From a virus, in the IMG/VR virus record IMGVR_UViG_3300032053_000199, positions 1-39,210 of that record: 39,210 nucleotides of DNA, one strand, 5' to 3'. Below the pieces are notes generated by a model. That model worked only from the letters and a program-made list of their open reading frames with translations, ran no database searches and had not been told where the DNA came from. Both the position numbers and the translations under genes were made by a program. Shown in pieces: positions 1-32,087 of this stretch. Each line of letters begins with the position of its first letter. Within the stretch, counting starts at the first letter, position 1.

Positions 1-5
1 AAGTA

Positions 6-188
6 ATGGCTGGAATTGAAAAGCGCATTAACAACCTAGAAGCCGAGAACAAAAAGCTCTTAGATACTTTGGAGCGGTATAGAGCGGCTTTGCAAATGAT
101 TGCGGCAGAATATCCAGGTGGTCCTGCAATCGGCCCACAGGGTAAAGTGGCAGTATCTTTGGCGCGGGAAGCCCTGGGGGATGAATGA
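6..188 (+). CDS. Small coiled-coil protein, copy 1 (5' end probably cut by window edge)
   Basis: The first ATG in the window gives 60 residues. The intact second copy at 35373-35576 has seven extra N-terminal residues, so this copy probably starts left of the window. Residues 3-30 are rich in Glu, Lys, Asn and Leu with heptad spacing (EKRINNLEAENKKLLDTLER), which predicts a coiled coil. The C-terminal half has no recognised domain. The stop codon overlaps the next start by 4 bp (ATGA). The copies differ by one Gly/Asp change. Function is unknown; position at the end of the early unit is the only context. Confidence 0.7.
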   Translation: MAGIEKRINNLEAENKKLLDTLERYRAALQMIAAEYPGGPAIGPQGKVAVSLAREALGDE

Positions 189-271
189 ATTTCCATGAGG
201 GCCATCTCACAGCCTGTTTCTTTCTTGGGTTCTTTGTTGGCGTAGTGTTTATGGCTATGGCTAAACGGTAA
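185..271 (+). CDS. 28-residue membrane peptide, copy 1
   Basis: This short ORF begins in an ATGA overlap with the coiled-coil gene and ends TAA. It encodes one hydrophobic segment (about residues 10-25, CFFLGFFVGVVFMAMA) with a basic tail (KR), so a single-pass membrane peptide is expected. The second copy at 35573-35659 keeps the frame and differs by one residue (Asn/Thr at position 2) and one silent change. The pair could work as a coiled-coil protein with a membrane partner, but nothing identifies the role. Confidence 0.6.
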   Translation: MNFHEGHLTACFFLGFFVGVVFMAMAKR

Positions 272-272
272 T

Positions 273-289
273 ATACCAATGGTTGGTAT
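273..289. promoter_or_regulatory. 17-bp perfect palindrome, copy 1
   Basis: ATACCAA-TGG-TTGGTAT has seven-base arms and a three-base centre and is followed by TTTTT on the plus strand. It recurs exactly at 35818-35834, although the sequence around it differs between the copies. It could be a weak terminator for the rightward early genes or a protein-binding operator. The stem has only two G-C pairs, so I cannot decide. Confidence 0.5.
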
Positions 290-453
290 TTTTATAATGT
301 ATAGTATTCGTACTAGCACCAAAATGTTCAAATGCTAATAGTCTTGAAAAGAGCTATTACGACGAGCACCTTATATTCAGTTGTATGTATAATTATGCAG
401 ATTGTCGCTTAATACTCTCAATCTACATATTTAATTGTAAAGCTATCTATTAT
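290..453. other. Non-coding convergent junction, copy 1
   Basis: No credible ORF lies between the early peptide and the late terminator. Bases 290-399 are unique to this copy. Bases 400-453 start repeat block C and contain a 6-bp inverted repeat (AGATTG at 400, CAATCT at 420). Confidence 0.6.
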
Positions 454-523
454 AAAAAAGCCCCATCCTATGGGTAAAGCCATAGAATAAGGCCGTTTAT
501 GTATGGGTAAAACCTATTATTAA
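400..523. repeat. Direct repeat block C, copy 1 (terminator block)
   Basis: This 124-bp block matches 35860-35983 with three differences by eye. It runs up to the stop codon region of the last minus-strand gene in each copy and contains the intrinsic terminator. The genes beyond it (534-1205 here, 35980-36597 there) are unrelated, so the block marks the edge of a swapped module. Confidence 0.95.
454..494 (-). terminator. Intrinsic terminator of the late unit
   Basis: Read on the minus strand, GGCCTTATTCTATGG pairs with CCATAGGATGGGGCT around a CTTTAC loop. This makes a roughly 15-bp stem with some G-U pairs, followed by a run of six T. It lies just downstream of the last late gene, so it should end the leftward transcript. 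The same structure occurs at 35914-35954. Confidence 0.85.
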
Positions 524-533: not shown

Positions 534-1205
534 TTAGGCTCCGTCTAAGGTAGCGCTTTCCTCTGAGTGATAAATAATTTTTGTGGAAATTCCTATAGTC
601 CCGGCAGTTCTAGTTATCTGCAAAACAATATCCCCAATTCCAGGAATTACCGTTGCCAACCCCAAAGGTGATCCAAGAGCAGTATCATTCTGGAAAAGAG
701 TATTTGCAGTGTCTTTATCGTTTGAAACAATTCTTTGCATAACTCCACCAACCGCGCCACACTTAACCTGTGATGGGGTAAATGGTTCAAATATTGTAAT
801 TTTGTTAGGATCAGCGTTAGCAAAGTTAGAGCTTAAAAACCAAGTAACAGCAGCATCCGTGGCGTTTATGCTCGTCACAACTCCAATTTTTACGTTCCCT
901 GTGGCTGAACTGCTTTTATCAATTTCTAACTTAATAAGAGAAATATCTATTCTTCCAGTAAGGGAATGCTGGAAATGTCCTGTGGACCCATAGCCGCCGC
1001 CGTCCGATAGGTCTATTAAAACATAGCCAGTGTTTGCGACTACTCCCGTTACGTTCATAGCTACAGTAATGTTATTTTCACGCTCGGAATCAGTAACTAC
1101 TAATTCACCGGAAGCACTGACTTTAACTTCATAATAGTCAGTGTCATTCTCCCTAGCCAAAGGCTGTCCTAGAAGTCTACTTGCCTGTCTAATAATCCCT
1201 ACCAT
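534..1205 (-). CDS. Probable virion or tail-associated protein
   Basis: This 223-residue protein is rich in Thr, Ser, Val and Gly and has predicted beta strands throughout. It has no signal peptide or membrane segment. Composition and position, last gene of the late unit directly before the terminator, fit a fibre or virion appendage protein. No domain was recognised. It occupies the place taken in the second junction copy by the unrelated 35980-36597 gene, which suggests a variable terminal module. The start is ATG with a weak ribosome site (AAGG about 12 nt upstream). Confidence 0.6.
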   Translation of the reverse strand: MVGIIRQASRLLGQPLARENDTDYYEVKVSASGELVVTDSERENNITVAMNVTGVVANTGYVLIDLSDGGGYGSTGHFQHSLTGRIDISLIKLEIDKSSSATGNVKIGVVTSINATDAAVTWFLSSNFANADPNKITIFEPFTPSQVKCGAVGGVMQRIVSNDKDTANTLFQNDTALGSPLGLATVIPGIGDIVLQITRTAGTIGISTKIIYHSEESATLDGA

Positions 1206-1220: not shown

Positions 1221-1481
1221 TCACGAAAAACCCGTGTCTAGTTTTCTAATAAATGGAGGAGGAAGTTCGGCTTCTTCGTCAATATCTATATAAGCCCCAT
1301 CATGATCTTCCATTACGTCTATCCCATAGGCTCCGCAATCAAAGGGTTCCCAATCATGGAAAGAGTCCTCTACGGGAATTAGATCGAGGATAAAGTCCTC
1401 AAACTGCCGTATTATCTCATTTGTTTTTTTGTCAACCGGAAGGACTAACTCGATGCACAGTTTAATAGCTTTCCTTCTCAT
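1221..1481 (-). CDS. Small acidic hypothetical protein
   Basis: This 86-residue protein has a basic N-terminus (MRRKAIK) and a very acidic second half with many Asp and Glu (for example MEDHDGAYIDIDEEAELPPP). No domain was recognised. It lies 15 bp upstream of the terminal virion gene in the same direction, after the inserted plus-strand pair. A clear Shine-Dalgarno is not seen before the ATG. The reading frame seems real because the longer frames around it are not open, but the function is unknown. Confidence 0.5.
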   Translation of the reverse strand: MRRKAIKLCIELVLPVDKKTNEIIRQFEDFILDLIPVEDSFHDWEPFDCGAYGIDVMEDHDGAYIDIDEEAELPPPFIRKLDTGFS

Positions 1482-1609: not shown

Positions 1610-2287
1610 ATGGGAAAAAAAGAAATAGTCCTCGCAATCCCCGATTTACATGCTCCCTATCATAACGCTCGAGCGATCCCCTTTATTCAGTACTGCATCA
1701 AACAGTTCAACCCTACAAAAATAGTATGCCTGGGAGATGAAGTAGACCAGCACGGCCTATCTACCTTCCCCAAGGAAACTGCCCTTTATAGCCCCGGCCA
1801 CGAATATGAGGCGGCCATGGAGTTTATGCAAAAACTCTATAAAGTCATTCCAGAGGCTCAAGTGTGTGAATCAAACCATACGGCCAGACCCTATCGTATC
1901 GCTAAGGCGGCCGGCCTTCCTTCAGTGTATCTAAAAGCCTATAAAGAAATAATGCAGAGCCCCCCAGGATGGTCCTGGCACGACAGAATCGAAATAGACG
2001 GCGTTGTATATGAACATGGTGAAAATTGTGGCTCTGGGCGTAATGCAGCCTTTACAGCAGCCTTCCAAAATCGGAAAAGTACTGTAATAGGCCATATTCA
2101 CAGTTTTGGCGGGGTCCAATACTCCGCAAACCACTATAACCAGATATTCTGGGCTAATGCAGGGTGTCTTATAGACCCAGAATCCCTGGCTTTTGCTTAT
2201 GGAAATAAATACAGAAATAAAAGCACCTTAGGAGCCGTTGTTGTTGATTCGGGCAGGGGAGCCCATTTTGTGAGGTTAGACTTTTGA
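1610..2287 (+). CDS. Calcineurin-like metallophosphoesterase
   Basis: This 225-residue protein carries the metallophosphoesterase signature in order: DLH at 12-14, GDEVDQHG at 42-49, SNHT at 88-91 (a variant of the usual GNHE) and GHIHS at 161-165. These residues normally bind two metal ions and hydrolyse phosphomonoesters or diesters. The substrate is not predictable. TGGAGG lies at good spacing before the ATG. It forms a two-gene plus-strand unit inside an otherwise minus-strand late region, a moron-like arrangement. The change of Gly and Glu in the third motif could alter activity. Confidence 0.85.
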   Translation: MGKKEIVLAIPDLHAPYHNARAIPFIQYCIKQFNPTKIVCLGDEVDQHGLSTFPKETALYSPGHEYEAAMEFMQKLYKVIPEAQVCESNHTARPYRIAKAAGLPSVYLKAYKEIMQSPPGWSWHDRIEIDGVVYEHGENCGSGRNAAFTAAFQNRKSTVIGHIHSFGGVQYSANHYNQIFWANAGCLIDPESLAFAYGNKYRNKSTLGAVVVDSGRGAHFVRLDF

Positions 2288-2559
2288 GTATAGGCAAACA
2301 CGACGTTAATCGACGGATTGTAATTACCTTTTGGGATCATTGCATAACCAACGACCGTAAACGCAAGAAAAAACCAATCCTTTGTGAAGTCTCTGGACGC
2401 ATCTTAGACGTTACCGGCTTAAAAATAACTATCGCGACTTGGAATATTGTAGGTGAGGATAAACCCACTCAACTTAAAAACGCGGAGCGATTTGAGGTAG
2501 TAAGAAGCTGCATCATTAAATACGGATGGGCCGAAGTGCTGAAATGGAATGACGACTAA
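2284..2559 (+). CDS. Hypothetical protein paired with the phosphoesterase
   Basis: This 91-residue basic protein is translated from a TTG start that overlaps the phosphoesterase stop (TTGA), so the two are probably translationally coupled. It is likely an alpha/beta protein with a conspicuous basic stretch (DRKRKKKP) near residue 25. No known domain was recognised. It ends by overlapping the convergent gene 2556-2756 by 4 bp. Confidence 0.55.
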   Translation: MSIGKHDVNRRIVITFWDHCITNDRKRKKKPILCEVSGRILDVTGLKITIATWNIVGEDKPTQLKNAERFEVVRSCIIKYGWAEVLKWNDD

Positions 2560-2756
2560 TGCGGTTTTTGTTCTTTCTTCCACAGATCAGCATCAGACCT
2601 ATAAATAGGCTTAAGCCTTTCCTCTTTAAAGCTTTTCACTTTTTCAAGTAGCTTTCTCGGTCTTTTAACGGGCGTTCGTTTAAGGGCCTTTAACGACCCA
2701 AACTTATATCCTGCAAAGAAAAAGATGCACCCAGCGAGTAAAATTAAAATTACCAT
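2556..2756 (-). CDS. Small single-pass membrane protein
   Basis: The chosen ATG at 2756 has GGAAGGG at good spacing. A GTG at 2771 is possible but lacks a site. The 66-residue product has one N-terminal membrane helix (MVILILLAGCIFFFAGYKFG) followed by a Lys/Arg-rich cytoplasmic tail. It overlaps the upstream acetyltransferase stop by 7 bp. It might tether sugar enzymes to the membrane, but that is only a guess from position. No family was recognised. Confidence 0.5.
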   Translation of the reverse strand: MVILILLAGCIFFFAGYKFGSLKALKRTPVKRPRKLLEKVKSFKEERLKPIYRSDADLWKKEQKPH

Positions 2757-3277
2757 TTTTGACCCTTCCACTCTTCATAGGTAATAGAAAATAGATGAGC
2801 ATCTACAAATTTTCCATCCTTGAAATAGAATTCTCTACGGGTTCCGTCCTGCTGCATCCCAAGCTTCAGGAATAATCCTATCGCTGGATTGCCATCAAAG
2901 GATTCCCCCCAAATAGAATTAAGGTTTTGATTCATAAAACCATGTGTAAATAGTGTTTTTAGGGCCATTCTGGCAAAGCCATATCGTTGATGGGCCGGTG
3001 CTATGTATAAAGAAAATTCAGCGTGTTGACAGAGCCTATCAATTGAAGTAAAGCCGCAAACCCCAACAATTCCAGCATCTTTATCATGTACGGAATACAT
3101 TTTTATAGTTTGGTCCTGGTCCTGATCTCTGAACCATTTATCTTGCTCCTGGTCGGAAATTAAATCAGACTGCCTGCACCAGCGCATAATAGATGGGTCG
3201 TTACGCCACTGCCTAATCGCTTCTCTGTATTTAGTGTCTAGAGGAAGAAGTCCACAGCCAAAATTATAATCAATCAA
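2750..3277 (-). CDS. GNAT N-acetyltransferase, PseH/RimJ-like
   Basis: The product is about 175 residues from a TTG that overlaps the previous stop. A longer in-frame ORF reaches 3379 but would overlap 3270-3530 by 110 bp. An early WRND motif (24-27), the central VGVCGFTSID strand and the acetyl-CoA loop HQRYGFA (96-102) fit the RimJ/RimL-type GNAT fold. In pseudaminic acid synthesis PseH N-acetylates the 4-amino sugar nucleotide, and this protein resembles PseH in layout. It follows the aminotransferase, cytidylyltransferase and dehydratase genes, so an amino-sugar substrate is likely. The exact substrate is inferred. Confidence 0.75.
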   Translation of the reverse strand: MIDYNFGCGLLPLDTKYREAIRQWRNDPSIMRWCRQSDLISDQEQDKWFRDQDQDQTIKMYSVHDKDAGIVGVCGFTSIDRLCQHAEFSLYIAPAHQRYGFARMALKTLFTHGFMNQNLNSIWGESFDGNPAIGLFLKLGMQQDGTRREFYFKDGKFVDAHLFSITYEEWKGQKW

Positions 3278-3530
3278 AAGCAGCAATCTTTCTAATTGCT
3301 TTGGCAATATCAAAAACAGACGTAGCTTCTCCATCGGCAATGCCAAAGTTTTCTTTTGTGTATGCCTTATAAAGCTCAAGTTTATTTTTTAGGTCAACTT
3401 CAACTTCATGAATAGCCTTTACAGCATCCGATTGTTGTAGATCTTGGCGCAAAGCTTTTAACTTAGCCTCTACTCCAACTATTTCAGCTTGTAACTCAGT
3501 TACCTTTGTTAATACATTTTCAAAACTCAT
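3270..3530 (-). CDS. Small coiled-coil protein in the sugar block
   Basis: This 86-residue protein is mostly helical, with heptad-like Leu/Val spacing over residues 5-55 (for example TELQAEIVGVEAKLKALRQD). It has no Cys, metal motif or membrane segment. It lacks the Asp-Ser-Leu motif of acyl carrier proteins. The start overlaps the aminotransferase stop by 4 bp (ATGA), so it belongs to the same translational chain. The function is unknown; a scaffold or virion-associated role is possible. Confidence 0.55.
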   Translation of the reverse strand: MSFENVLTKVTELQAEIVGVEAKLKALRQDLQQSDAVKAIHEVEVDLKNKLELYKAYTKENFGIADGEATSVFDIAKAIRKIAAFD

Positions 3531-4756
3531 TTTGTACTCCTTATTTGTTGAGCGAATGGACTTTTTGGTAGCTCTCCTTCGAGCTTAATTTTACCTATTT
3601 TTAATATTAAAGAAATATCTTTTAAAGTGTCAAATATTGAGTTCATTTTTTCCATAAGAGGAAATGAATAAAACCACGACGCACCAAACAATAGACCGGC
3701 CTTACATGCTTCTTGCATGAATAGCCCTTTCTTTAAATCATCTCCAACCAGTAATCCCCTGGTTGGATAGCCCACTATCTTTACTCCAAGATCCATTTCG
3801 TTGAATCTTCTCATGAATTCCATGCCTGAATTCCATAGATCTTGTATTTTAAACTTTGTCTGCAAAAGACTAATTGTTTTAGTGGCGGCACAGATACTGA
3901 TACGTTCACCGGCAAAGGAGGAACTAACGAAATATTCTCCGCACTCCATTATTTCTTTGAGTCCACCAACAATAGAAATTGGCATCCCACCACCGAGAGC
4001 CTTGCCCATAATAATTAAATCTGGATTAGTTCCGCACCAACCGGCAACAGAGTAAGATGGAAACCTAAGACCAGTTATAGTTTCATCAAAAATAAGAACC
4101 GTCTTATTGCGAGTACAGGTATCTCTGAGCCTCTTAAGCCACCTTATTCTATCCATTGAATAATCCGTGATGACCGGCTCTATAATTACAGCAGATACCG
4201 TGTCGTCTATATCTTCAATATCTGTAAACGCTCTTATATTAAATGAATTTACAACACCCAGAGCAGGCGGCATTTGGGAAATGAACTCATCGTGCCATCC
4301 AGAATATCCCTGCCTCAGTATTGTTTTCCTTCCATTATAGGCCCTGGCAATCCTTACGGCAGCGGTGCAGCCTTCCGAGCCTGTCTTTAGAAGTTTTATC
4401 CTCTCAACAAACGGAACTATTTCTTTGAATTTTTCAGCCAGAACTATTTCATCGACTGAAGAAAGAGAGAGAGTAGCTCCTTTTTTGTATGCACTATATA
4501 CCGCAGAAGCAATATCTGGATTTCCATAACCAAGAAGATTCGTCCCAAGACCTGCGACAAAATCAAGGTATTTATTTCCAGCAGTATCTAGAAGAGTCGC
4601 CCCATCAGCAGAGAGTAGGTGCGTAGGATAAACTCCTTTTACAAAACTCTCTGGTCTTTTAGAATTAGTCAAAGATCCCATAGCAATTGATTGCCGGGCC
4701 CTTTTATCGGTTTCAAAGTCCATTACTCTAGAAACGGTGCGTAGCTTGGATTCCAC
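3527..4756 (-). CDS. Class III PLP-dependent aminotransferase (glutamate-1-semialdehyde aminotransferase-like)
   Basis: This 409-residue fold-type I enzyme shows the class III motifs: TGSEGCTAA (125-133), GYSGWHDEF (150-158), the cofactor Asp in IFDETITGLRF (D224) and the PLP lysine in GKALGGGMP (K252). The family includes HemL, but the gene overlaps the sugar cytidylyltransferase by 29 bp. Class III aminotransferases next to SpsF-type cytidylyltransferases occur in bacterial surface-sugar clusters. I infer amination of a sugar-related keto group. The usual PseC/LegC enzyme is DegT-type, so this is not a direct substitute by family. Confidence 0.85.
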   Translation of the reverse strand: MESKLRTVSRVMDFETDKRARQSIAMGSLTNSKRPESFVKGVYPTHLLSADGATLLDTAGNKYLDFVAGLGTNLLGYGNPDIASAVYSAYKKGATLSLSSVDEIVLAEKFKEIVPFVERIKLLKTGSEGCTAAVRIARAYNGRKTILRQGYSGWHDEFISQMPPALGVVNSFNIRAFTDIEDIDDTVSAVIIEPVITDYSMDRIRWLKRLRDTCTRNKTVLIFDETITGLRFPSYSVAGWCGTNPDLIIMGKALGGGMPISIVGGLKEIMECGEYFVSSSFAGERISICAATKTISLLQTKFKIQDLWNSGMEFMRRFNEMDLGVKIVGYPTRGLLVGDDLKKGLFMQEACKAGLLFGASWFYSFPLMEKMNSIFDTLKDISLILKIGKIKLEGELPKSPFAQQIRSTK

Positions 4757-5486
4757 TTATTTCCCTCGACAGTCTAAGAGCCTCTAAAACCCTACTTTTT
4801 TGTTTTCTAACATTTTCCAAATCTTCTTCTGTGTCTACTGAAAGCTTCAAAGAAGAAAGATCCAAGTATCCCACAATATGAGCAGAGCTAAAATTCTTTG
4901 GGCAATCCTTAGATCGTACAAAGGTTGTGACATGCTCTCTATCTGAGGATGTCCATGCATGTTCGTTTATGTATTTTAATAACCTTGCACTCATGATTTC
5001 GCAGTCCATGCCATCAAAGGAAAGACGCAATCTTTCATCAACATTTGAAACGTAATCAAATCTATTTATCATAGCTACGTTCAGAGCTTTCGTTATTACA
5101 GGTGCCGGGATAAGTGGACAGTCACCAGTTATTCTAATCACATAATCAGCACCAGAGACATCAAGGAGGCTTTTATATCTTGAGAGTACGTCGAATTCAG
5201 AGCCTTCGATTATTTGGGCTTTTTTATTAAAAGCAGGCTCGTCTTTAATTTTGTCACCAGCAGGAATCAGCAGATAAACATTAGCGTTAATATGCCTAGA
5301 AGTATTAGGCCGAGATATATAACCTGCAGATTCCCTAGCCGCATCAATTACCCACTCTAACATTGGTTTACCACAGATGTCGGCGAAAACCTTATTTGGA
5401 AACCTGACCGATGTAGATCTAGCCTGAATTCCTATTGCTACTTTTGTCAGCTTTTGTAAATTCGTGGACTCGTTGGTGGACTGCAT
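4728..5486 (-). CDS. Cytidylyltransferase, SpsF/NeuA/PseF-like
   Basis: This 252-residue nucleotidyltransferase begins at an ATG with AAAGGAG at ideal spacing. It has the nucleotide-binding loop QARSTSVRFPNK (21-32), the metal-site motif GDCPLI (121-126) and SVDTEEDL (216-223), all typical of the SpsF-type CMP-sugar synthetase group. These enzymes activate a nonulosonic or related acidic sugar with CTP for transfer. It overlaps the oxidoreductase upstream by 68 bp and the aminotransferase downstream by 29 bp. The precise sugar is unknown. Confidence 0.85.
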   Translation of the reverse strand: MQSTNESTNLQKLTKVAIGIQARSTSVRFPNKVFADICGKPMLEWVIDAARESAGYISRPNTSRHINANVYLLIPAGDKIKDEPAFNKKAQIIEGSEFDVLSRYKSLLDVSGADYVIRITGDCPLIPAPVITKALNVAMINRFDYVSNVDERLRLSFDGMDCEIMSARLLKYINEHAWTSSDREHVTTFVRSKDCPKNFSSAHIVGYLDLSSLKLSVDTEEDLENVRKQKSRVLEALRLSREISGIQATHRF

Positions 5487-6060
5487 ACAGCTCCTTTAGG
5501 CTTTGTTTTTCGCCATTTAACCATCTTTGGATATTCCAGACATAAGCCTGATCCATGTCTTTACTGTTAAGGGTCTGTCCATTTATACAGCAGTCCCAAA
5601 CAGGACTTTTATTTTCCAAACGGACGCTTCCCTCGGCCAAGGCTATGATTTGGAGGCAATCCCAATAAAGGCCATCCTTTCCGCTTCTAAAATAGTCATA
5701 CCAGCTAGGGCCAATAGCCTGGTCATTAAGCAGTTCTCGATACTGCATAACCATAGACAGCGGAGTAAAGTTTTCTTTGTATTTTAATAGAACCCTAGCG
5801 AGAGTGTCGAGGTTCTTACAAATAGGCTTTTCACACAAAACAGGTAATTGTAATTCTGCTAGTAGCATTAGGTGTTTTTCGTGAGAGTCTGTCGGAGTAC
5901 AGATTATTATTCCAGAACACTTTTTTGCAGCATTTACAATCGCTGTATTTGTTATGGGTCCATTTAGAGAGTCGAGTCCAAGCCACTCTATTTTAAGAGA
6001 ATCTAGAATTGCACAATATCTAGTTCCCATAGATCCCCTATGGCCCAAGATAAGAATCAT
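5419..6060 (-). CDS. Short Gfo/Idh/MocA-type oxidoreductase
   Basis: The N-terminal half has a Rossmann fold: GHRGSMG (6-12), CTPTDSH (54-60) and the family motif CEKPI (76-80), whose Lys is normally catalytic. At 213 residues it is much shorter than the usual 320-350, so the C-terminal substrate domain is reduced. The last 68 bp are also coding for the cytidylyltransferase in another frame. Oxidoreductases of this type (PtmA-like position) accompany cytidylyltransferases in legionaminic-type clusters. It probably acts on a sugar or sugar nucleotide with NAD(P). Confidence 0.75.
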   Translation of the reverse strand: MILILGHRGSMGTRYCAILDSLKIEWLGLDSLNGPITNTAIVNAAKKCSGIIICTPTDSHEKHLMLLAELQLPVLCEKPICKNLDTLARVLLKYKENFTPLSMVMQYRELLNDQAIGPSWYDYFRSGKDGLYWDCLQIIALAEGSVRLENKSPVWDCCINGQTLNSKDMDQAYVWNIQRWLNGEKQSLKELYAVHQRVHEFTKADKSSNRNSG

Positions 6061-6878
6061 GTGCAGTATGGCCTTAGAATCTCTATAAGTTCTTTACTAG
6101 TAAACTGAGGAGCATTTTTTGAATTTAGATCAGCACTTATTGACTCATGGATCTTCTCACCAGGCCGTAACCATGTCTCCGTTAGAGTGGGGGTTTTATT
6201 GTAAATATTTCCAATGGCACGAATAATGCCAGTTACCTTTGCAGCCTTCATTTCTGGGATATAAACTCTTGAACTAGAAAAGGGGACTGATAGCATAAAT
6301 TCAACAGCATTTTCTATTGTTATCCAAAACCTAGTCATTTGCATATCGGTGATATTTACTGGACGATGATTTTTAATTTGCTCAATAAAGTAATGAAGAG
6401 CAGACCCGCGGCTACCAAGTACATTACCCCAGCGAAAAACAATAAAACCATTATTGAGCATAATCTTTTCAGAAATTCCCTTGCACATTCCATAGACGTT
6501 TATTGGGTTGACCGCTTTATCGGTAGATGAAAATAAAACATTTTTTATACCCAATTCTTTAGCAACAGAGCAGACATTGATAGTACCAAGGATATTGGTC
6601 TTTACGGACTCCTCGGGATTTTGTTCCATTATCTCAATATGCTTTAGTGCTGCAACATGATAAACCAAAAGTACCCCAACAAGCGCAGAGCGCAGAGAGT
6701 CCCTATCTCTTATGTCTCCAATGACACATTTTATACTTGGAAACCTATTGGCCAGCTCTTTTTGCTTTAATTCGCATCTAGAAAATGCGATTATTTCTGC
6801 TTTTGGGTAATTGATTAAAAGTTGTCTTATTAGCTCTGCGCCTAGAGTCCCGGTAGCACCAAGTACGGCAATTTTCAT
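6057..6878 (-). CDS. UDP-sugar 4,6-dehydratase, PseB/CapD-like
   Basis: This 273-residue extended SDR shows GATGTLG (7-13), GDIRD (54-58), AALKH (76-80), SSTDKAVNP (117-125) with the catalytic Asp-Lys pair, Tyr129 and Lys133, GNVLGSRG (151-158), TRFWIT (182-187) and RPGEK (238-242). This is the pattern of PseB-type UDP-GlcNAc 4,6-dehydratases, the first step of pseudaminic-type sugar synthesis. It is shorter than typical PseB (about 330) but keeps all the catalytic motifs. ATGA overlaps join it to both neighbours. Confidence 0.88.
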   Translation of the reverse strand: MKIAVLGATGTLGAELIRQLLINYPKAEIIAFSRCELKQKELANRFPSIKCVIGDIRDRDSLRSALVGVLLVYHVAALKHIEIMEQNPEESVKTNILGTINVCSVAKELGIKNVLFSSTDKAVNPINVYGMCKGISEKIMLNNGFIVFRWGNVLGSRGSALHYFIEQIKNHRPVNITDMQMTRFWITIENAVEFMLSVPFSSSRVYIPEMKAAKVTGIIRAIGNIYNKTPTLTETWLRPGEKIHESISADLNSKNAPQFTSKELIEILRPYCT

Positions 6879-9484: not shown

Positions 9485-10870
9485 TTAGTTCCCAACTTTT
9501 GCAATTGTGAACATACATGTATCGGTCGTTGTCTGCACACTACCAGTTGTGTGCGGTCTAACCACATCTCCGGCTACGAGATTCCCAGTCCAACAACAAA
9601 CTACTTCAATAGTCGCCCCACCAGACCCTGCAATCGACCTTCGTCCGTTAGCATAGGTAACAGTCCCGATATTAGTTGTTAAGGTTCCTGAATTTACCGA
9701 TAGTCCAATAGTAGTTCCGGCATCAGTTCTAACATCAGTATAAGTTATTGCGAAAATACCATTTTCATTAACCGTGAAAACCGAACCTAAAACCGATGTG
9801 TCAGCAGAGGTCGTGTAAGTAATAGCATTTCCAACACTCTTCCTTACGTTTGTAAGTCTTCGGATTTTCGTGCTACCAGAACCGTGACCGTTGCCAGTAT
9901 CAACAATTATTTCGCTTCTCGGCATCGCAGTGCTGAATGGAGCAAGTGAAATTTCATCTGGCGCTTCGTCCCACGTTCCTGCTGTTGTTAGTGTGAATTT
10001 CAAACGTCCAAGTAATCTAGCCGCAACACCAGCACGAGCCGTTGTGGAATATAGAAGAATTCCTGAGTCATCGCCGCCGCCCCCAGCAAGAACAGTAGTT
10101 GTTAAAACAGACGACTCGTCGAAATATGAATTACCAGAAAGAGCCAACTCAATTGTGCTAGCGTTATCAATTGCATAAACATAAACATATTGAGCAAGGC
10201 TTCCACTAGCTAATCCCAAGGTTGAGCCAGAAGAGATCGTTATATTCAACGCTCCTGTTACGGTGCGAGTGTTGTATGTGCCCGTTGCAGCAGTAGAACT
10301 TCTAGTCCCAATAAAGATTGGAGTTGTTGCGGTAGCATCAGCCGCTGCTTTTGTTTTCAGGGCTACCGTTAATGCATTGGCAGATACAGACGCAGATATT
10401 GTTAGATTCTCAAGCTGAGAAGACGAAGATATGCTTCTAAAAATCAAAGTACCTGTTGCATCGTTAGATACTAAAGCATCATGAGCCGCCGAAACAGCAA
10501 GAGGAAGAGTCATTGTGTAACTAGAGCTAGTGACCCCGCCAAGAATTCTTGCAGTGTTTGAGTTAGAAGCATTACCGAAATATACGCTTAGAGGAGCAAG
10601 TGTCGCCGCTCCGATGTTGTAGAGCCCCGTAGTTTTATAGGCGATAGTTGATGCAACACTAGCCGTAATTGTCAAATCATCAGCACTTGCATTTCCTATG
10701 ATAACGTTTCCGTTTAAAGTAGCCGTTCCAGCACAGGTTAGTGCTGAAATGGAAAAGTCCTTGGTTCCGTCGGAAGTTCCGTTAATAATATCTGTAAAGT
10801 TTGTGTTTACTTGTGAAGCATCAGCAGCCGTTCCATTGCTGAATGTATTTGTTACTGTAATGTTAGCCAC
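9485..10870 (-). CDS. Tail fibre or appendage protein
   Basis: The GTG start has GAAGGA upstream. The 461-residue product is rich in Thr, Ser, Ala and Gly with repeated beta-type motifs. Its N-terminus (ITVTNTFSNGTAADASQVNT) matches the opening commonly seen in phage fibre proteins of environmental phages. The middle contains LNGNVIIGNASADDLTITAS-like segments typical of fibre shafts. It follows the ejection-protein genes and precedes lysis genes. The very high Ser/Thr content makes it one candidate target for O-linked sugar. Confidence 0.75.
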   Translation of the reverse strand: MANITVTNTFSNGTAADASQVNTNFTDIINGTSDGTKDFSISALTCAGTATLNGNVIIGNASADDLTITASVASTIAYKTTGLYNIGAATLAPLSVYFGNASNSNTARILGGVTSSSYTMTLPLAVSAAHDALVSNDATGTLIFRSISSSSQLENLTISASVSANALTVALKTKAAADATATTPIFIGTRSSTAATGTYNTRTVTGALNITISSGSTLGLASGSLAQYVYVYAIDNASTIELALSGNSYFDESSVLTTTVLAGGGGDDSGILLYSTTARAGVAARLLGRLKFTLTTAGTWDEAPDEISLAPFSTAMPRSEIIVDTGNGHGSGSTKIRRLTNVRKSVGNAITYTTSADTSVLGSVFTVNENGIFAITYTDVRTDAGTTIGLSVNSGTLTTNIGTVTYANGRRSIAGSGGATIEVVCCWTGNLVAGDVVRPHTTGSVQTTTDTCMFTIAKVGN

Positions 10871-19344: not shown

Positions 19345-20409
19345 TTAAAAAAGTATCGTAGTTTGTTCAGTTTCCGGCCTTAAACACTGATCCTCTAGGT
19401 GCCTAGACATCGTGTATTGATCGAAAAGATTAACCAGTTTCATTTGTTTAATTCCAATTATGTTCCCCTCGGGGAAAGCACCTAAAGTGCCCCCCTCACT
19501 ACAGTTTATCCAAATTCCAGGAACACTCAAGGTCACTTGGTCAAACCATGCTTTAAAATTTGCGTAGCTCTGCCACGATAGAACCTTGTTCCCGTAGACA
19601 TCGGTCATTTTCACAACATTACCTAGCTTCGCGTCATATTTAGAGTCCCATGCGTGAAATTTATGCATATATGAAAAACAAAAATCTGCCCCGACAAAAA
19701 CGATTGGATTTGCTCCCATTATCCCTTTTGCAGCATATAAACACGCACCTAAAACATTCCCACCAGTGGAAAGATTGCAGTTAAATTTCTCAATCTTGAA
19801 GACTTCATCGTTAAACTTCTTAGACGGAATAGAGGCACTAAAGAAATAAATCTCACCCTGCCATTTTTCCAACAATCTTGGGGATGTTCCAATGAAAGCA
19901 AGTAGCTTTTTAGTCTTAGTTCTTTCCCAGTAAAATTCGGGAGTATTCTTCCCGCCCTCGCTAACCTCTTCAGAAGTAACCTCTCCTGCGTCTAGAGTTA
20001 CATAAAAATCAACATCAACGCTGTTGTCTTCCATGAAGTGGAAATTATGAAGACATGAAATCAGACCAATTCCGCCCCGGTCTTTTAACAGATGACCATT
20101 TCTCTTAAGACTCGGACCAGCACCGGCAACAATACATGGCTTATACTGAAAGTGATTGTAGAATTTTCCAATACTATGAGCGGCAAAAGACCCAAACTTT
20201 TCTTTGTTGGCTTTGATGTTGGCAAGCCAAATATCATTCCAATATTCCATTGTGGCCACGTCCCCAGAACTAGCCTGAGCAAACATTTCCTTTGGAGTTA
20301 TTGGAGGGTTGTCTATGTTGTTTTGAAACTCTAGCTTCATCTCAACTAAATGCCCAGCATCTCGGAGTTTCTTTAATTCTTGGAGTTCTTGTAATTCTTT
20401 TTCTTCCAT
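19345..20409 (-). CDS. Maf/DUF115-like glycosyltransferase
   Basis: This 354-residue protein has the MAF_flag10/DUF115 pattern: VAGAGPSL (94-101), a VTLDAGE acidic motif (137-143), STGGNVLGACLYAA (214-227), GANPIVFVGADFCF (232-245) and NCSEGGTLG (312-320). Flagellin Maf enzymes transfer pseudaminic or legionaminic acid from CMP-sugars to Ser/Thr, and the same domain occurs in MptE pterin enzymes. The N-terminal 20 residues form a Glu/Lys/Leu helix. It lies between the decoration protein and small structural genes, preceded by a strong hairpin. In a window that also encodes NeuB- and SpsF-type enzymes, sugar transfer to virion proteins is the favoured inference. Confidence 0.82.
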   Translation of the reverse strand: MEEKELQELQELKKLRDAGHLVEMKLEFQNNIDNPPITPKEMFAQASSGDVATMEYWNDIWLANIKANKEKFGSFAAHSIGKFYNHFQYKPCIVAGAGPSLKRNGHLLKDRGGIGLISCLHNFHFMEDNSVDVDFYVTLDAGEVTSEEVSEGGKNTPEFYWERTKTKKLLAFIGTSPRLLEKWQGEIYFFSASIPSKKFNDEVFKIEKFNCNLSTGGNVLGACLYAAKGIMGANPIVFVGADFCFSYMHKFHAWDSKYDAKLGNVVKMTDVYGNKVLSWQSYANFKAWFDQVTLSVPGIWINCSEGGTLGAFPEGNIIGIKQMKLVNLFDQYTMSRHLEDQCLRPETEQTTILF

Positions 20410-23017: not shown

Positions 23018-24976
23018 TTATACTGGGATATTAGCTCGTTGAATAGCCCCCTGTTGCTTTTGTTCTTCAACCGCTTGTTTCCCATCATTAGAGAGACTTT
23101 GTTGATTCAATTGATGCTCTCTGTCAGCCTGTGCCGATTGTCCGTCTGCTGCCATCTGCTGTTGTTGCTGCTGTTGTTGCATTTGGGCATCTTGCTGCGC
23201 CTTACCAGTCATTCGTTCAATAATTATGTCTGCATTTGGCAAATCAGCCAGCTTTAACATCTCTACTTGGTCGATAATCTGACGATCAAACAACTCTAAA
23301 CCTTGACGGTATTGTTTAGCTCTCATGAATGGCATTGCAGAACCAGTAGACACTTTTAGGTCGAGATTCCCCTTAATAGGGATTTCTTGCTGTCCCATGT
23401 AACCACCAGTAGGCCCCATTCTCTGAACTACGGCAACCTTTTGTAGTGATCCATCTTCGTTGTACTGTGGTTCACCGTTGTTCATGACTGTTTTAACGTG
23501 GAACTTAAAATACTTGGATGCATTAAGATTATTCGTAACTCGGACAACAGTAGGTACATCTCTGAATTGTACAACTCTTGAGACATACATCTGTCCCAGA
23601 TCTTGCAAATACGCATCTAAATATCGGCTCTTTAAACGGCTACGAGTGTTCGCAGCCTCTTGAATATCTTGAATAGCGGCAGCGGCAGTTACTCCAGGAG
23701 GAGGAGTAGTTTCTACAGTACCGGAAATATCGGTGAACCATTCTTTCATTCGATCAATCATTTGCAATACGAAAGGCTGTAACTGAACGCCCTCTTCTCG
23801 ACGAACTTCGCTCCCTTTGTTCTTTTCAACAATTAAACCGGGACTATTTACAAGATTTTCAGTGTCTATGCCACTTTCGTGGTCCACCACCCAAATCGGA
23901 TTACCCATTAGAGTTAGTACGTCTAAACTAAATGAAACTAGTTTATTAAAGATCTTTTGAGGGTGTTCTAACTGCTCGATCTCAGAAATACCCCAGAATT
24001 CACGAGGCAACATATAGTTTACTAAACGAGAATAGGGAAATTTTCCATCTTCATATGGATTTGGCCCATCTTCCAAAAGAACACCACCAGCGGAAACTAA
24101 TTTCCTGCCATTTGGGTACTTCAATCGGACATTTGAGCCGACTTGTACCCCATTTTCCATAATGGGATCTTCTATCTGCTCATCAGAAGAACAATACATG
24201 ATTTTCTTTAAACATTTATTGTCTAAAAGATTCTCAGTGTTGCCACTCGAACTTTGCATTGATTTCGTATCATCAATCGGAAGGCGTAATTGAAAGACCG
24301 GATCTAAATCTGTTTTTTCATTGCGTATAGCATCGCTCATGTCAGACTTAACGTACTTACCAAGCTCAGGGTAGTCCCTCTTGATAACGGCAATGTCTGT
24401 GGGTTCAGCTTTAATGAAAGAACACGAGTGTTTGTTAACATCTCTAGAATTTGGATCAGGATATGCCGCATATGGATCACACGATTCAAATTCAATATCG
24501 CCATCCATAGCTTTTTTATTGGGATTGTAAACTAAACTAGATAGTCCAGTTCCGTAAAGATGGGCATCGTACACGGATTCAGTAAGGGCCATCAACCAGT
24601 TATTTTTTACCCAATCAACTTCAGCAATCTCATTCATCAAATCAGCAAACTCCCGATCGGAGGGCTCTTGGGCTTGATATTCCCACTTAGGCCTAACGTC
24701 TGTAATGATAGGAACTGAGCTTTGAATTGCTTTGAAGATTAAATTAATTACTTCACTGTGGCGGTACGATGGGCGTTGCTCATTCCATTGTTGCCCACGG
24801 AACATCTTATAATTATTCATCCACTTAGAGTCGTAATTACCGCGCCATTTCTTATTTTTATTAAAGGTTTTCTCGATAAACTTAAGCGTCTTTCGTTCTT
24901 CATCCGTAGGGTTGTACTGCTCGCCAGAATCATTTTCTTTTTCAAGCTCAGGCGATTGTTCGTGTTCTGAAATCAT
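23018..24976 (-). CDS. Portal protein, P22-like
   Basis: This 652-residue protein starts (after an acidic leader) with TDEERKTLKFIEKTFNKNKK and has the wing and stem composition of P22-type portals, including the segment GTVETTPPPGVTAAAAIQDI. The last 60 residues are Gln-rich with eight consecutive Gln, a possible barrel-like tail. It forms the dodecameric DNA channel and docks terminase and the gp4-like adaptor. It starts with a 4-bp overlap with the FmdB-like gene. Confidence 0.85.
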   Translation of the reverse strand: MISEHEQSPELEKENDSGEQYNPTDEERKTLKFIEKTFNKNKKWRGNYDSKWMNNYKMFRGQQWNEQRPSYRHSEVINLIFKAIQSSVPIITDVRPKWEYQAQEPSDREFADLMNEIAEVDWVKNNWLMALTESVYDAHLYGTGLSSLVYNPNKKAMDGDIEFESCDPYAAYPDPNSRDVNKHSCSFIKAEPTDIAVIKRDYPELGKYVKSDMSDAIRNEKTDLDPVFQLRLPIDDTKSMQSSSGNTENLLDNKCLKKIMYCSSDEQIEDPIMENGVQVGSNVRLKYPNGRKLVSAGGVLLEDGPNPYEDGKFPYSRLVNYMLPREFWGISEIEQLEHPQKIFNKLVSFSLDVLTLMGNPIWVVDHESGIDTENLVNSPGLIVEKNKGSEVRREEGVQLQPFVLQMIDRMKEWFTDISGTVETTPPPGVTAAAAIQDIQEAANTRSRLKSRYLDAYLQDLGQMYVSRVVQFRDVPTVVRVTNNLNASKYFKFHVKTVMNNGEPQYNEDGSLQKVAVVQRMGPTGGYMGQQEIPIKGNLDLKVSTGSAMPFMRAKQYRQGLELFDRQIIDQVEMLKLADLPNADIIIERMTGKAQQDAQMQQQQQQQQMAADGQSAQADREHQLNQQSLSNDGKQAVEEQKQQGAIQRANIPV

Positions 24977-25312: not shown

Positions 25313-26614
25313 TCACTTTGACCAAGTTTCAGCACCACCGGCTCTTTTTTTCTTCATCAACTCAACAAAAGGGTTCGTACTCTTCGGGGCCCTTACCTTT
25401 ACTTCTTTTATTAAATGTCTAGTACCTAGCGTTATATATCTATCACAATCCATCGCATGATCGTTTGCCGCGACTGGGTTCATATCCTCTGTCTCATCAT
25501 CCGGGCCCACGTCATCAGCTTCAGGATAGTGGTAAGTCTCCCTCTCATCAGAAGAATAGGGACATGCCCCAGCAAACTCTTTATACTTCCTAGTCTTTAC
25601 CAGGTCGTAATGCATATCAATCCCAAGCCTTATTGATCCAGGTCCAGTTGATGCCCCTTCTGCTGGTATATAATTACGATTAAAGTCTTCGATATATCCT
25701 GGTTGGTCAGTTCCGCAAAAGATTCTCTCAACCGGCCATATCTTCAAGGTTCTTTGCACTATCTCCCTTTGTTCCTTTAAGATCAGACCACTCCGATAAA
25801 CCTCGCTTATCCCATATTCCATGCCGTCTGGTGTTATAGCTCTGACTTTAAAAACAAAAGGATCAGTGAATCCCCAGTCAATCCCGCCGAAGTACCTTGT
25901 ACCTACTGGAAGAGCAAAGGGAGTTATTAGATTGTCATCATCGGACCAACAATTATATACAAGCCCTTCCATTTTCTGCCAGTCACCACCAAACAACATC
26001 TGGAATCTTCTCGGGTCCATATTCTGCTTCCGTTGTTCACGAATAACCGGGTCATGTAACGAGTTATGCGGATTATCCCAGCTTGCCGCTTGTATTAATG
26101 TTATGTCTGGACGCAAACCTTTTTGCTTTGGCTTAATTATCTCTTTGTAAATCCAATTCAAAGTATATGGTGACGTCGTTAGCAATATAGGGCAGTTTAG
26201 AGTTGATTGACGCCCTTGGATGTTTTCCCAGAAGTACAACGAGTATTTACCGGCCTCATCTCCCCATATAGCCCTAACATCAGGAATACCTACAATTGAA
26301 TCCGGATCGGTAGCAGTTCTACAATAAACAGTAGCTCCACTATGCATCTTGAAGATTGCCTCGCCATCCTTGTATGTTCCATAACCGCCCATAACCCGTA
26401 AGAAATGAGGAAGTGTTGATTGCTTTAGTATCTTATAAGTCGGAGCAGTTATCAGGAAGTTATCCGTTGGGAGTATGTTCGTATGCAATTGTCTTTTCAT
26501 CCAGATAGCACCAGATAGGGTCTTGCCATACTGAACCCCGGTACCAAGCACAGTCAGTTGAGCATTTGACATTATAGCGTCATACTGTTTTTGGCTGTGA
26601 CTTTGGAAGTTCAT
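25313..26614 (-). CDS. Terminase large subunit
   Basis: This 433-residue motor has a Walker A-like GTGVQYGKT (24-32), Walker B WGDE (117-120), coupling motif LLTTSPY (134-140) and the RNase H-like nuclease start GGIDWGFTDPF with Asp236. It packages DNA into the procapsid and cuts it. The start overlaps the NeuB-like gene stop by 4 bp (ATGA), so synthesis may be coupled to that of the sugar enzyme. Headful cutting would fit the circular-permutation idea, but packaging type is not proven. Confidence 0.9.
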   Translation of the reverse strand: MNFQSHSQKQYDAIMSNAQLTVLGTGVQYGKTLSGAIWMKRQLHTNILPTDNFLITAPTYKILKQSTLPHFLRVMGGYGTYKDGEAIFKMHSGATVYCRTATDPDSIVGIPDVRAIWGDEAGKYSLYFWENIQGRQSTLNCPILLTTSPYTLNWIYKEIIKPKQKGLRPDITLIQAASWDNPHNSLHDPVIREQRKQNMDPRRFQMLFGGDWQKMEGLVYNCWSDDDNLITPFALPVGTRYFGGIDWGFTDPFVFKVRAITPDGMEYGISEVYRSGLILKEQREIVQRTLKIWPVERIFCGTDQPGYIEDFNRNYIPAEGASTGPGSIRLGIDMHYDLVKTRKYKEFAGACPYSSDERETYHYPEADDVGPDDETEDMNPVAANDHAMDCDRYITLGTRHLIKEVKVRAPKSTNPFVELMKKKRAGGAETWSK

Positions 26615-27528
26615 TGCTTTGGCTCTATAGCATCCCCTACGTTATAGTCGTGTCTCGAGACTTGATTGTCTATCATTGATACTGGATGGGCGCCTTTTAG
26701 GTCCGACTTCAAAGAGCGGTAGATACCATAGTTGTCATCCTTCCTAAGAGTGTCACCTACCTTGATAACTCTAGTCGCTATCATCCTTCTGTTGTGTCTT
26801 AAGATCATTGCTAGTTCTTCTTTAGATGGACACACCACCGGAAGCTTAGTCGTGTTGATGTTCTTGGTCATGGCTAGGAAGTCTTCACTTGATAGAGAGT
26901 GTCCAGCGTCAGGGGTATCGGTATAGTTAAAAGGGTTATAGTGCTTCTCTAGTAAGTCGGCACCATACTCAAAAGCCATTAATGGAATGTTGAATACGTC
27001 GAGACTATGATCGGATAGACCGGCCGGCCTTCCTGTCAATTCTCGAAGCCTAAGTATCTTCCTAAGGTTAGAGTGGTTAGACGGATAGGACGCTTCACAG
27101 TGTAAGAAGACTACAAAAGCATTCTCTAGCATGTTGTTTACTATCTGGATGTCTGTCTCAGTATGGCCACCCGTTGACACAATGATCTCCTTACCGCAAG
27201 TCTCAAGGAATCGGATCATATCAACATGGTTCATTTCACTTGAGGCCAGCTTGTGGGTTTCAACATAGGGGTCGGTTATCTTAAGACCCTCAACGCTGAA
27301 GGCTGTGCACATAAACTCAATTCCCACGGCTTGGCACTTACTGGCCAGTAAAGGTATCCAATCCCTAGGCATCTCAGCCGATATTCTCCCACTATGCCCG
27401 AATAGCTCTTGGTGAGAGTATAGTTGAAACTTGATAGCGTCGGCACCGCATTTCTTAGCTATAGAGCAGGCATCCTTACAGTCTTCAAAGGTTTTCCAGT
27501 TTGATCCGAGTTCGGCAATAATCTTCAT
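26611..27528 (-). CDS. Nonulosonic acid synthase, NeuB/SpsE-like
   Basis: This 305-residue protein has the NeuB set in order: IAELGSN (4-10), KFQ (33-35), KLASSE (93-98), VSTG (117-120), LHCEASYP (142-149), GLSDHS (170-175), EKHY (194-197) and PDAGHSLSSEDF (206-217). A SAF-type C-terminal domain starts near NRRMIATRVIKVGDT (246 on). Such enzymes condense phosphoenolpyruvate with a hexose derivative to make a nonulosonic acid. The gene lies between terminase subunits with 4-bp overlaps on both sides, a very unusual place for a sugar enzyme. The exact hexose is unknown. Confidence 0.92.
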   Translation of the reverse strand: MKIIAELGSNWKTFEDCKDACSIAKKCGADAIKFQLYSHQELFGHSGRISAEMPRDWIPLLASKCQAVGIEFMCTAFSVEGLKITDPYVETHKLASSEMNHVDMIRFLETCGKEIIVSTGGHTETDIQIVNNMLENAFVVFLHCEASYPSNHSNLRKILRLRELTGRPAGLSDHSLDVFNIPLMAFEYGADLLEKHYNPFNYTDTPDAGHSLSSEDFLAMTKNINTTKLPVVCPSKEELAMILRHNRRMIATRVIKVGDTLRKDDNYGIYRSLKSDLKGAHPVSMIDNQVSRHDYNVGDAIEPKQ

Positions 27529-29873: not shown

Positions 29874-30107
29874 TTAGGATATGTGAAGCCATCGGAAAAG
29901 TATCGGATCAAAATCCCAGTTATTCTTTTTTAGCCATCGCCTTATTGACGGATGCTTATCAGTAAAGCGCCTTAATCCTATATGGTGAATTTCTTGATGA
30001 TGGGGTCTACAAAGCGGAAGTAAATTAAAATCATCGTCAGTCCCGCCAGAGCCACGAGTTTTGACATGATGGTTCTCCGCATCTTTGCCACAAACTTCAC
30101 AAGTCAT
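29874..30107 (-). CDS. HNH endonuclease
   Basis: The 77-residue protein holds the HNH pattern: CEVC (3-6), HH (13-14), Asn28 and CRPHHQEIHH (33-42). It is the minimal HNH fold with a zinc site. Phage HNH enzymes of this size often assist terminase or act as nicking or homing nucleases. Here it is beside RusA rather than terminase, so a role in recombination or defence is also possible. Confidence 0.8.
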   Translation of the reverse strand: MTCEVCGKDAENHHVKTRGSGGTDDDFNLLPLCRPHHQEIHHIGLRRFTDKHPSIRRWLKKNNWDFDPILFRWLHIS

Positions 30108-30486
30108 CTATGTCGAAGATCCAGACGCAAGTATGGTTGGTCGGATATTTCTCATCAAAAGGTTTTTTATTTAATTTAATAGAAAAAATTTGCGAGTCAT
30201 CTAGGTTTAGAAGTGGGAACATGCAATCAATTAGGCTTTTCTCATAATTGGCTATGTCTACTTTTCTGATAGTTCCTTTTTTTGTTTCCCAGTCTGAATA
30301 AAAGTCAACCTCGACTCCGATTCTATTTCCATAACCAAAAAGATTCTCAGGCTCTATTACTCCCCGACAATAAGATTCAAACTCTTTATATTCTTTTGTT
30401 TTAAATCGGCGCTTGGTTTTAAAATCAGTAGCAAAGCAAGCGTTAACAGATACCGGAAGTCTTTCTAGAATTAATGGGAATTTCAT
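30097..30486 (-). CDS. RusA-type Holliday junction resolvase
   Basis: The 129-residue protein shows the RusA pattern KVDIANYEKSLID (75-87) followed by LDDSQI (95-100), which supplies the metal-binding Asp residues. RusA cuts four-way junctions and so resolves recombination or replication structures before packaging. The start overlaps the upstream stop by 4 bp. It is the only clear DNA-recombination enzyme in the window. Confidence 0.85.
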   Translation of the reverse strand: MKFPLILERLPVSVNACFATDFKTKRRFKTKEYKEFESYCRGVIEPENLFGYGNRIGVEVDFYSDWETKKGTIRKVDIANYEKSLIDCMFPLLNLDDSQIFSIKLNKKPFDEKYPTNHTCVWIFDIDDL

Positions 30487-30770
30487 TTTGTTCCAACCCA
30501 GATTTTAACATCGTCAAGCTTCATATTTACACAAAGTTCTGCAATATTAGTTATTCTATTCATGGGCCATGCTTTAGAAACAGGATTGCTCTTTAAATCA
30601 GATATAAATCTAGCTAGTTTATCTGAACAATCTTTCTTTTCTTGAAGTTCCTTGGCTCTATCTTCTTTTTTAATTATTATGATTTTATTCTTCCGATAGC
30701 CGCATTCAATGCAACTTATGGCTCCATAATATCCGTCGTCATTACAAACAGGACAATATTTATTTTCCAT
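30483..30770 (-). CDS. Small zinc-binding protein
   Basis: The 95-residue protein begins with MENKYCPVCNDDGYYGAISC followed by IECG, giving two CxxC-type pairs for a DnaJ-like or ribbon zinc site. A Lys-rich helical part follows. It overlaps RusA by 4 bp and may help bind DNA. No specific family was recognised. Confidence 0.55.
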   Translation of the reverse strand: MENKYCPVCNDDGYYGAISCIECGYRKNKIIIIKKEDRAKELQEKKDCSDKLARFISDLKSNPVSKAWPMNRITNIAELCVNMKLDDVKIWVGTK

Positions 30771-30960
30771 TTAGATCTATCGAGGGTTCCATATTTTTAA
30801 TAACACCGTTTGCCATGTCTATTCTTCCAGCAAGATAAGACATAGATAGTAGTAATTTTAGTGCCTTTAAACTTAATCCGTTGTCAATTGCTTCGCGGTG
30901 TTCTTTCATCAACAATTCTACATATTCTGAAACATGAGTTCTTACATCAATCGGTGTCAT
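30760..30960 (-). CDS. Small hypothetical protein
   Basis: This 66-residue helical protein (ALKLLLSMSYLAGRIDMANG) has no recognised motif. It overlaps the zinc protein by 11 bp. It is probably part of the leftward early unit. Confidence 0.45.
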   Translation of the reverse strand: MTPIDVRTHVSEYVELLMKEHREAIDNGLSLKALKLLLSMSYLAGRIDMANGVIKNMEPSIDLNGK

Positions 30961-30986
30961 CTTTTAAATTCCTTCTGAAATAATAC

Positions 30987-31160
30987 TTACTCTTGTTTTT
31001 CTTTAACTTGAACAACTAAAAATAAATTCTCGTGTTTTAATTTAGCCAGTGCAGCAATGAATTCGGTGTCAAGTTCTGATAAATCAAAGGTAATTCTCCA
31101 TCCACCGTCAATTGTAGTTCTAGCCGACTGAAAGATTGCCTCTGTTATTAATTTAGTCAT
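30987..31160 (-). CDS. 57-residue hypothetical protein
   Basis: This short ORF has an ATG with GGAGAG before it and fills an otherwise empty gap between 30960 and 31191. The product begins MTKLITEAIFQSARTTIDGG, then WRITFDLSELDTEFIAALAK, with alpha/beta pattern. No motif was recognised. Ribosome site and same-strand context support it. Confidence 0.5.
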   Translation of the reverse strand: MTKLITEAIFQSARTTIDGGWRITFDLSELDTEFIAALAKLKHENLFLVVQVKEKQE

Positions 31161-31190
31161 TTAGCTCTCCATCCAATAAAATTCATATCT

Positions 31191-31811
31191 TTATTTAAAA
31201 CACCTTTTCGCTGCTTTTCGTTTAGCACTAAATATATTTTTAAATTGTTCTTTTCGACGCGCTAAATCTAAAAGCTGACTAGCAAAACGGTTGTTTTGTG
31301 GATTTTTTACATTTATATTTTGTCGTTTTAATTTTCGCTGCAATTTCTTGGCATGCTTTCTGGCATCAGAATATAGTCGCAGGACTTGTATATATTTCGA
31401 CGAGAAACTCAAAAGCTCATTATTAATAAAAGGATACTTCAATCTAACAACTACCCATCCGTCAGCTTGAATCTTTGAGTCTCTCCATAAGTCATAAGAC
31501 TCTTTTCCGTCATGAGAAGAGCCGTCTATCTCAATCACAAGCTTTTGCTTTATCCAAACAAAGTCACCAAAAAAACTGTTTATCAAAGGCCAGTTTCTCT
31601 CGTATCCATTTAAGACACCTTGACTTACTAACCACTTTTCAAAGGCAGTCTCGCTCTTGTAATTTTTAGCATTTAAACTCTTACGATATCTCTTTCGCTT
31701 CTTCTTAGCTAACAAGCCATATCTCCAATCCAGATTCGGTTCAGGGTTGCTGAGCGCAGAGTCCCCCAAACCCCCTAAGGAGTTTTGAAGGACTGTGTGC
31801 GTGTCTCTCAC
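31191..31811 (-). CDS. DUF559/Vsr-like PD-(D/E)XK nuclease
   Basis: The core (residues about 55-125) has SETAFEKWL, FFGDFVWIKQKLVIEIDGSS and D.WRDSKIQADGWVVVRLKY, the DUF559/Vsr-type endonuclease pattern. A Lys/Arg-rich C-terminus should bind DNA. The GTG at 31811 is the longest start, but a TTG at 31715 with GGAGA upstream gives a start right before the basic KKKRKRYRK segment and may be correct. The first 32 residues lie in a GC-rich, low-coding-looking stretch. This type is often a homing-like free-standing nuclease. Confidence 0.75.
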   Translation of the reverse strand: MRDTHTVLQNSLGGLGDSALSNPEPNLDWRYGLLAKKKRKRYRKSLNAKNYKSETAFEKWLVSQGVLNGYERNWPLINSFFGDFVWIKQKLVIEIDGSSHDGKESYDLWRDSKIQADGWVVVRLKYPFINNELLSFSSKYIQVLRLYSDARKHAKKLQRKLKRQNINVKNPQNNRFASQLLDLARRKEQFKNIFSAKRKAAKRCFK

Positions 31812-32087
31812 TTATCCATCTTCGGACGAGGGAGCTATCACGGCTTTGCTAGTTCCTAGCTGTTATCGATCTTATTTAGAGACGCTCGTTAGGCCAAAAG
31901 CATGGCCGATCCCAGGGCGGCTTGGCGTTTTCCAATCACAGGCCCCATTTTGCCTACGTCTTGCTTTACAAGTTCTAATAAAAGCTTTATGCTCTCATTA
32001 GAACTTTATCTACAAATACGGTTTTAAGGGAGTACGCGGCTTTCCACAAGGCCCTACTCCCTAATTATTTTCAGAAGGATTAAAAAG
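31812..32087. other. Divergent non-coding region with paired inverted repeats
   Basis: No credible gene is seen. AAGTTCTAAT (31970-31979) and ATTAGAACTT (31997-32006) form a perfect 10-bp stem with a 17-nt loop. GGGAGTA (32028-32034) and TACTCCC (32055-32061) form a second stem with an inner GGC/GCC pairing. The second hairpin precedes gene 32088 in its leader. The region must hold divergent start signals, but I could not pick a clear promoter. Confidence 0.55.
32028..32061 (+). promoter_or_regulatory. Leader hairpin before 32088 gene
   Basis: GGGAGTA and TACTCCC pair (8 bp with the flanking A-T) and an inner GGC/GCC closes further. The hairpin ends 26 bp before the ATG at 32088 and does not have a good T-run, so it may regulate translation, RNA stability or termination. 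A similar placement occurs before the 32649 gene. Confidence 0.5.

Follow-up and report, generated by a model that had tools for sequence, protein, structure and literature searches.

The 39,210 nucleotides analysed here (IMG/VR virus record IMGVR_UViG_3300032053_000199, hereafter the window) are best explained, with a probability of roughly 85%, as a circularly permuted podovirus genome read once round, followed by an overrun, from 35389 to 39210, into a different version of the late-operon end. The version at the left end of the window is termed version A and that at the right end version B. The repeated ends of the record would thus be mostly an effect of assembly, one that exposes a strain-to-strain swap of virion-surface genes, and the phenomenon itself is already known and ordinary. 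The features on which this reading depends are the putative genome, the common blocks at its two ends and the genes that border them in version A:

1-35388, no strand assigned: putative single turn of the circularly permuted podovirus genome, with the late block on the minus strand and the early block mainly on the plus strand
1-272, plus strand: block A, left copy, comprising the 3'-terminal part of the final early ORF (6-188) and a 28-codon ORF (185-271)
35389-35660, plus strand: block A, right copy, a repeat of 1-272
35373-35576, plus strand: final early ORF (67 aa), intact in the right copy and crossing the junction at 35389
270-292, plus strand: palindrome ATACCAATGGTTGGTAT followed by a T-run, left copy, common with 35815-35837
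35815-35837, plus strand: palindrome, right copy, common with 270-292
399-523, minus strand: block C, left copy, with a predicted intrinsic terminator of 15-bp stem (494-459) at the late-operon end
35859-35983, minus strand: block C, right copy, with the predicted late-operon terminator (35954-35919), its end coinciding with the stop codon of the gene that follows
534-1205, minus strand: final late gene of version A, encoding 223 aa, without known family or relative
1221-1481, minus strand: penultimate late ORF of version A, 86 aa, for which no relative could be found

Comparison of the window with itself (1-39,210) identified blocks A and C as its only long repeats. The first-pass annotation had reported that both recur about 35.4 kb downstream at 98-99% identity, with different unique segments between them and different genes after them, and each of these statements holds. 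The copies of block A are direct and 98.9% identical, with mismatches at 121, 189 and 229 and a spacing of 35388, while those of block C are 97.6% identical, with mismatches at 459, 510 and 511 and a spacing of 35460; chance is ruled out because the E-values are 3e-135 and 2e-55 respectively. That annotation listed A and C correctly and missed a third common block, the 23-bp palindrome, which lies between A and C at both ends of the window, such that the order block A, palindrome, block C is kept in the left and right copies. The segments between the blocks are unlike in both sequence and length owing to indels; the left boundary is 523 bp long in all, the right one 595 bp. A short tandem repeat (tttacatctg, about four copies, 35766-35810) can be read directly in the unique stretch of the right copy, to which it is confined. 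Past the boundary the genes are wholly different, 534-1481 on the left and six ORFs at 35980-39155 on the right having no blastp similarity, and a test for hidden homology between the end genes of the two versions found none.

Given that block A is coding and block C carries a terminator at the late-operon end, the common DNA is where the two operons converge, the early one ending on the plus strand and the late one at its terminator on the minus strand. In the left copy the contig edge removes the start of the early ORF, which is overlapped by the 28-codon ORF ending at 271. As read from the sequence, two of the block A mismatches are missense, with G/D in the first ORF and N/T in the second, and the third is silent. 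In both copies of block C a hairpin of 15 pairs and a T-run are predicted on the minus strand, and the palindrome at 270-292 is a possible weak terminator of the early operon. Immediately past block C, beside the terminator, the copies diverge where the last late gene has its stop codon. No relatives were found for the proteins encoded at 534-1205 and 34693-35127, the structure model of the former is uninformative (pLDDT 32), and an exact 27-mer of block A recovered no near relatives of the boundary from viral_contigs.

Given that near-identical blocks border different genes, it might be supposed that blocks A and C serve as recombination sites at which the late-operon end is switched, whether by phase variation or by a recombinase. 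However, such programmed variation is barely credible: the copies are direct and the window has no long inverted repeats by self-comparison, the proteins searched, which exclude several small early ORFs, include no recognisable recombinase, invertase or reverse transcriptase, and both blocks are already accounted for as coding sequence and terminator. A diversity-generating retroelement and an invertible tail-gene cassette were rejected on the same grounds, no such gene being among the proteins searched, and the former is further counted against by block mismatches that are not restricted to A positions.

To judge from its gene products, the window belongs to an uncultured podovirus, as it encodes a predicted portal, terminase, SU10-type adaptor and podovirus-type major capsid protein, the last matched at an E-value of 7e-76. 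Its family was found with two queries:

25313-26614, minus strand: terminase large subunit
23018-24976, minus strand: portal protein

The portal profile identified 133 relatives in IMG/VR, 80 of which were kept, and no prophage relatives in genome_contigs. Among annotated phages the portal matches only 3 records, at about 22% identity, and the DNA of 35373-39210 has no match. The long relatives were read whole and the gene content of the family was counted over 20 contigs. The span between the copies in the window contains one terminase, one portal and one major capsid gene, and a single early block on the plus strand and a single late block on the minus strand, precisely as first described; the circles of the relatives likewise contain one late and one early block each, in a mostly similar arrangement. 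Relatives with end overlaps are 32.4-40.0 kb once trimmed and the span in the window is 35,388 bp. Six of them overlap exactly at their ends, by 114-127 bp (G005 127, G019 126 from base 4, G020 127, G022 123, G024 114 and G026 123 bp), and three overlap imperfectly (G002, 164 bp with 1 mismatch; G003, 197 bp with 12; G006, 135 bp with 2), each of these three having one contig edge 126 bp from the nearest mismatch. The break points of the relatives fall at various distances upstream of terL, roughly 6 to 31 kb, and therefore there is no fixed terminus. A fixed direct terminal repeat of the T7 type was rejected, as the overlaps of the relatives are assembler-sized and lie at varying map positions. 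Recurrence of the start, single-copy modules, a length like that of the relatives and varying ends, features expected of a circularly permuted genome with terminal overlap, are present.

The differing copies had initially been taken to mean that this is not a simple terminal redundancy. The copies do differ, but imperfect overlap is not unusual, being seen in the three relatives above and in an unrelated phage, G040, whose 562-bp overlap at 90.6% identity is exact for 127 bp from one edge and for 125 bp from the other and looks like a de Bruijn graph bubble passed twice on a circle. G040 (L167/L168; 1-562 and 33862-34424) is itself probably another complete circle with ends that differ by strain variation. 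In a further relative, G023 (L125/L126), an inverted repeat (1-246 and 3927-4172, 98%) lies at the contig start among reordered family genes and is probably a misassembly in that record.

The first-pass annotation had proposed either a genome of about 35.4 kb, circular or circularly permuted, whose right end shows an alternative allele, or a duplicated cassette. A real duplication would require the genome to be linear, to measure 39.2 kb or more and to have two early/late boundaries with separate last late genes after each, and the assembled contig does have both copies, differing as an old duplication might. Nevertheless, this is improbable for three reasons: first, no relative with both ends read has two internal copies of the boundary; second, the relatives form circles of about 32-40 kb that contain the boundary once; and third, the start of the duplication would have to coincide exactly with the left edge of the contig, in the middle of an ORF. 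The circle with an alternative allele is thus favoured over duplication, is well supported by the relatives and by the position of the left edge, and nothing points to a duplicated cassette.

The left edge bears on how such a circle would have been assembled. From this edge to the first mismatch the copies are identical for 120 bp, and in k-mer graphs made from the circle 1-35388 and the path 30001-39210 the version A branch starts exactly at position 1 for k = 121. The 120-bp edge therefore fits a de Bruijn break at k = 121, which is consistent evidence and not proof; the 123-127 bp mostly shown by the relatives, against 120 bp in the window, count against the same explanation. End repeats with lengths that match assembler k-mers have been reported with CheckV, often arising from short-read assembly of circular or concatemeric genomes (PMC8116208), and de Bruijn assemblers are described as unable to phase strains across stretches longer than k, with mismatches and indels in such assemblies put down to inter-strain chimeric contigs (PMC11443906, the PenguiN paper). 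It is suggested that a podovirus genome packaged by the headful or from a concatemer was present as a mixed population, in which versions A and B would have a common early/late junction at about 98-99% identity and different last late genes. The assembler may have begun where version A leaves version B, 120 bp ahead of the first mismatch, run round the circle once, reached the common junction again and continued into version B (35389-39210) before stopping. Reads would, on this account, join 35388 to 1. Version B would then be a sister strain in which the late-operon end was swapped beside the terminator, presumably by homologous recombination over the boundary.

Whether version B does belong to a sister strain is close to an even call, and is best considered from the genes that it carries:

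35980-36597, minus strand: last late gene of version B, 205 aa, with a C-terminal half found in many unrelated phages
36641-36982, minus strand: 113 aa, weakly similar to 36982-37350, with a relative in L136
36982-37350, minus strand: 122 aa, with a relative in L136
37316-38065, minus strand: 249 aa, with relatives at 44-50% in L015-L019
38062-38313, minus strand: 83 aa, with relatives in L138, L139 and L141
38517-39155, minus strand: 212 aa, with relatives at 59-74% in L133-L137, phages without the portal of the window

The C-terminal half of the first of these proteins was found in at least 80 loci. The right end had previously been labelled a tail module and this label could not be upheld: the structure model for 38517-39155 (with a mean pLDDT of 76.6, and mostly above 85 over residues 101-210) best matches capsid decoration or head-fibre base proteins. 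It matches the capsid-interface chain of Haloferax virus HFTV1 and a chain of phage Adjutor and, more weakly, the head fibre base of phi29 and other capsid decoration proteins; fibre-like proteins among predicted viral structures are matched as well. The predicted C-terminal domain thus resembles capsid decoration proteins and head-fibre bases, and "virion-surface module" appears a fair name for 35980-39210 on the strength of this model. No known family was found for the other version B proteins.

Given that version B does not rejoin the backbone within 3.2 kb, up to the contig end at 39210, and that its genes occur in 0 of the 20 family contigs searched, it may come from another phage. The contig would then be a chimera in which phages are joined across at least 120 identical bases, 35389-39210 deriving from an unrelated phage that has only block A, the palindrome and block C in common with the window; this concerns the origin of the right end and leaves circle A unchanged. 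The relatives of 38517-39155, 37316-38065 and 35980-36597 do sit in phages without the portal of the window, and these carriers include a complete circle of another kind, G037, which has a tape-measure gene and is by that gene siphovirus-like, and in which the homologue of 38517-39155 is flanked by the tape-measure gene and the major head protein. On the other hand, DNA that is 98% identical exactly over the operon boundary implies recent recombination between both phages anyway, the tetranucleotide composition of 35980-39210 (0.0197) is inside the late-region range of the window (0.0136-0.0221) and fails to separate the module from the backbone, and host-recognition genes are known to be common to morphologically distinct phages (PMC10579305). 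A chimera of this kind is accordingly a tentative reading of the right end, to be kept in view and not preferred. It is a far more speculative suggestion that podoviruses and siphovirus-like phages swap head-decoration or surface genes through a conserved boundary of last early gene and late terminator that acts as a recurrent docking site.

With 1-35388 read as one turn of a circle and the remainder as an overrun, the window can be compared with known cases. Like the "DTR" contigs of CheckV (PMC8116208), it has a start that recurs near its end, a circular or concatemeric template and a k-mer-sized overlap before the first mismatch; unlike them, its overlap is imperfect, reflecting strain variants, and the contig runs 3.8 kb past its start, and therefore a search for exact end repeats misses it. 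As in inter-strain chimeric contigs (PMC11443906), a common stretch of at least k joins variant-specific stretches, maybe of different molecules, but here the chimera closes round a circle and both versions are visible in one contig. Metaviromic islands and the exchange of host-recognition modules (PMC3909814, PMC10579305) provide a third parallel, as in these too near-identical phage DNA has putative virion-surface genes swapped for unrelated ones; in the window a near-identical flank (98-99%) is present on one side and the module genes have no similarity. The module of the window differs in lying at the late-operon end, bounded by a terminator, and in that one of its proteins has a predicted likeness to capsid decoration instead, any part of the module in host recognition being putative. 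Where strains are mixed, a k-mer-sized edge on an imperfect end repeat is the mark of a phage genome that is circular and complete. "Linear" records of this kind can be identified as complete and cut back, in this case to 35,388 bp, the overrun being the allele of the second version, and they should not be reported as longer genomes or as duplications.

Several further observations concern the gene content of the window. A pathway resembling that of nonulosonic acid sugars is encoded on the minus strand within the late operon, with NeuB adjoining the terminase genes, and each of its genes is present in 15-17 of the 20 family contigs:

26611-27528, minus strand: NeuB
6057-6878, minus strand: PseB-like dehydratase
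5419-6060, minus strand: MocA oxidoreductase
4728-5486, minus strand: CMP-sugar cytidylyltransferase
3527-4756, minus strand: class-III aminotransferase
2750-3379, minus strand: PseH-like acetyltransferase

Between the capsid and adaptor genes, 19345-20409 (minus strand) encodes a protein of the MptE-like/DUF115 family, to which the Maf flagellin glycosyltransferases belong; it is present in all 20 family contigs and has no match in the annotated phage collection. Together with the sugar cassette, this protein suggests that these phages may glycosylate their own virion or a host surface protein. The product of 9485-10870 (minus strand) resembles a fibre or adhesin in which the anchor is conserved and the tip variable: across 18 family contigs its first 70-145 or so residues show 32-61% identity, and the remainder is usually variable. 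In the relatives, the late-operon end carries short ORFs that are mostly not shared, which fits, as expected, a spot where cargo genes come and go. Near this end of the late block in the window, two ORFs lie on the opposite strand (1610-2559, plus strand), one of them a metallophosphoesterase with relatives at other places in 3 family contigs.
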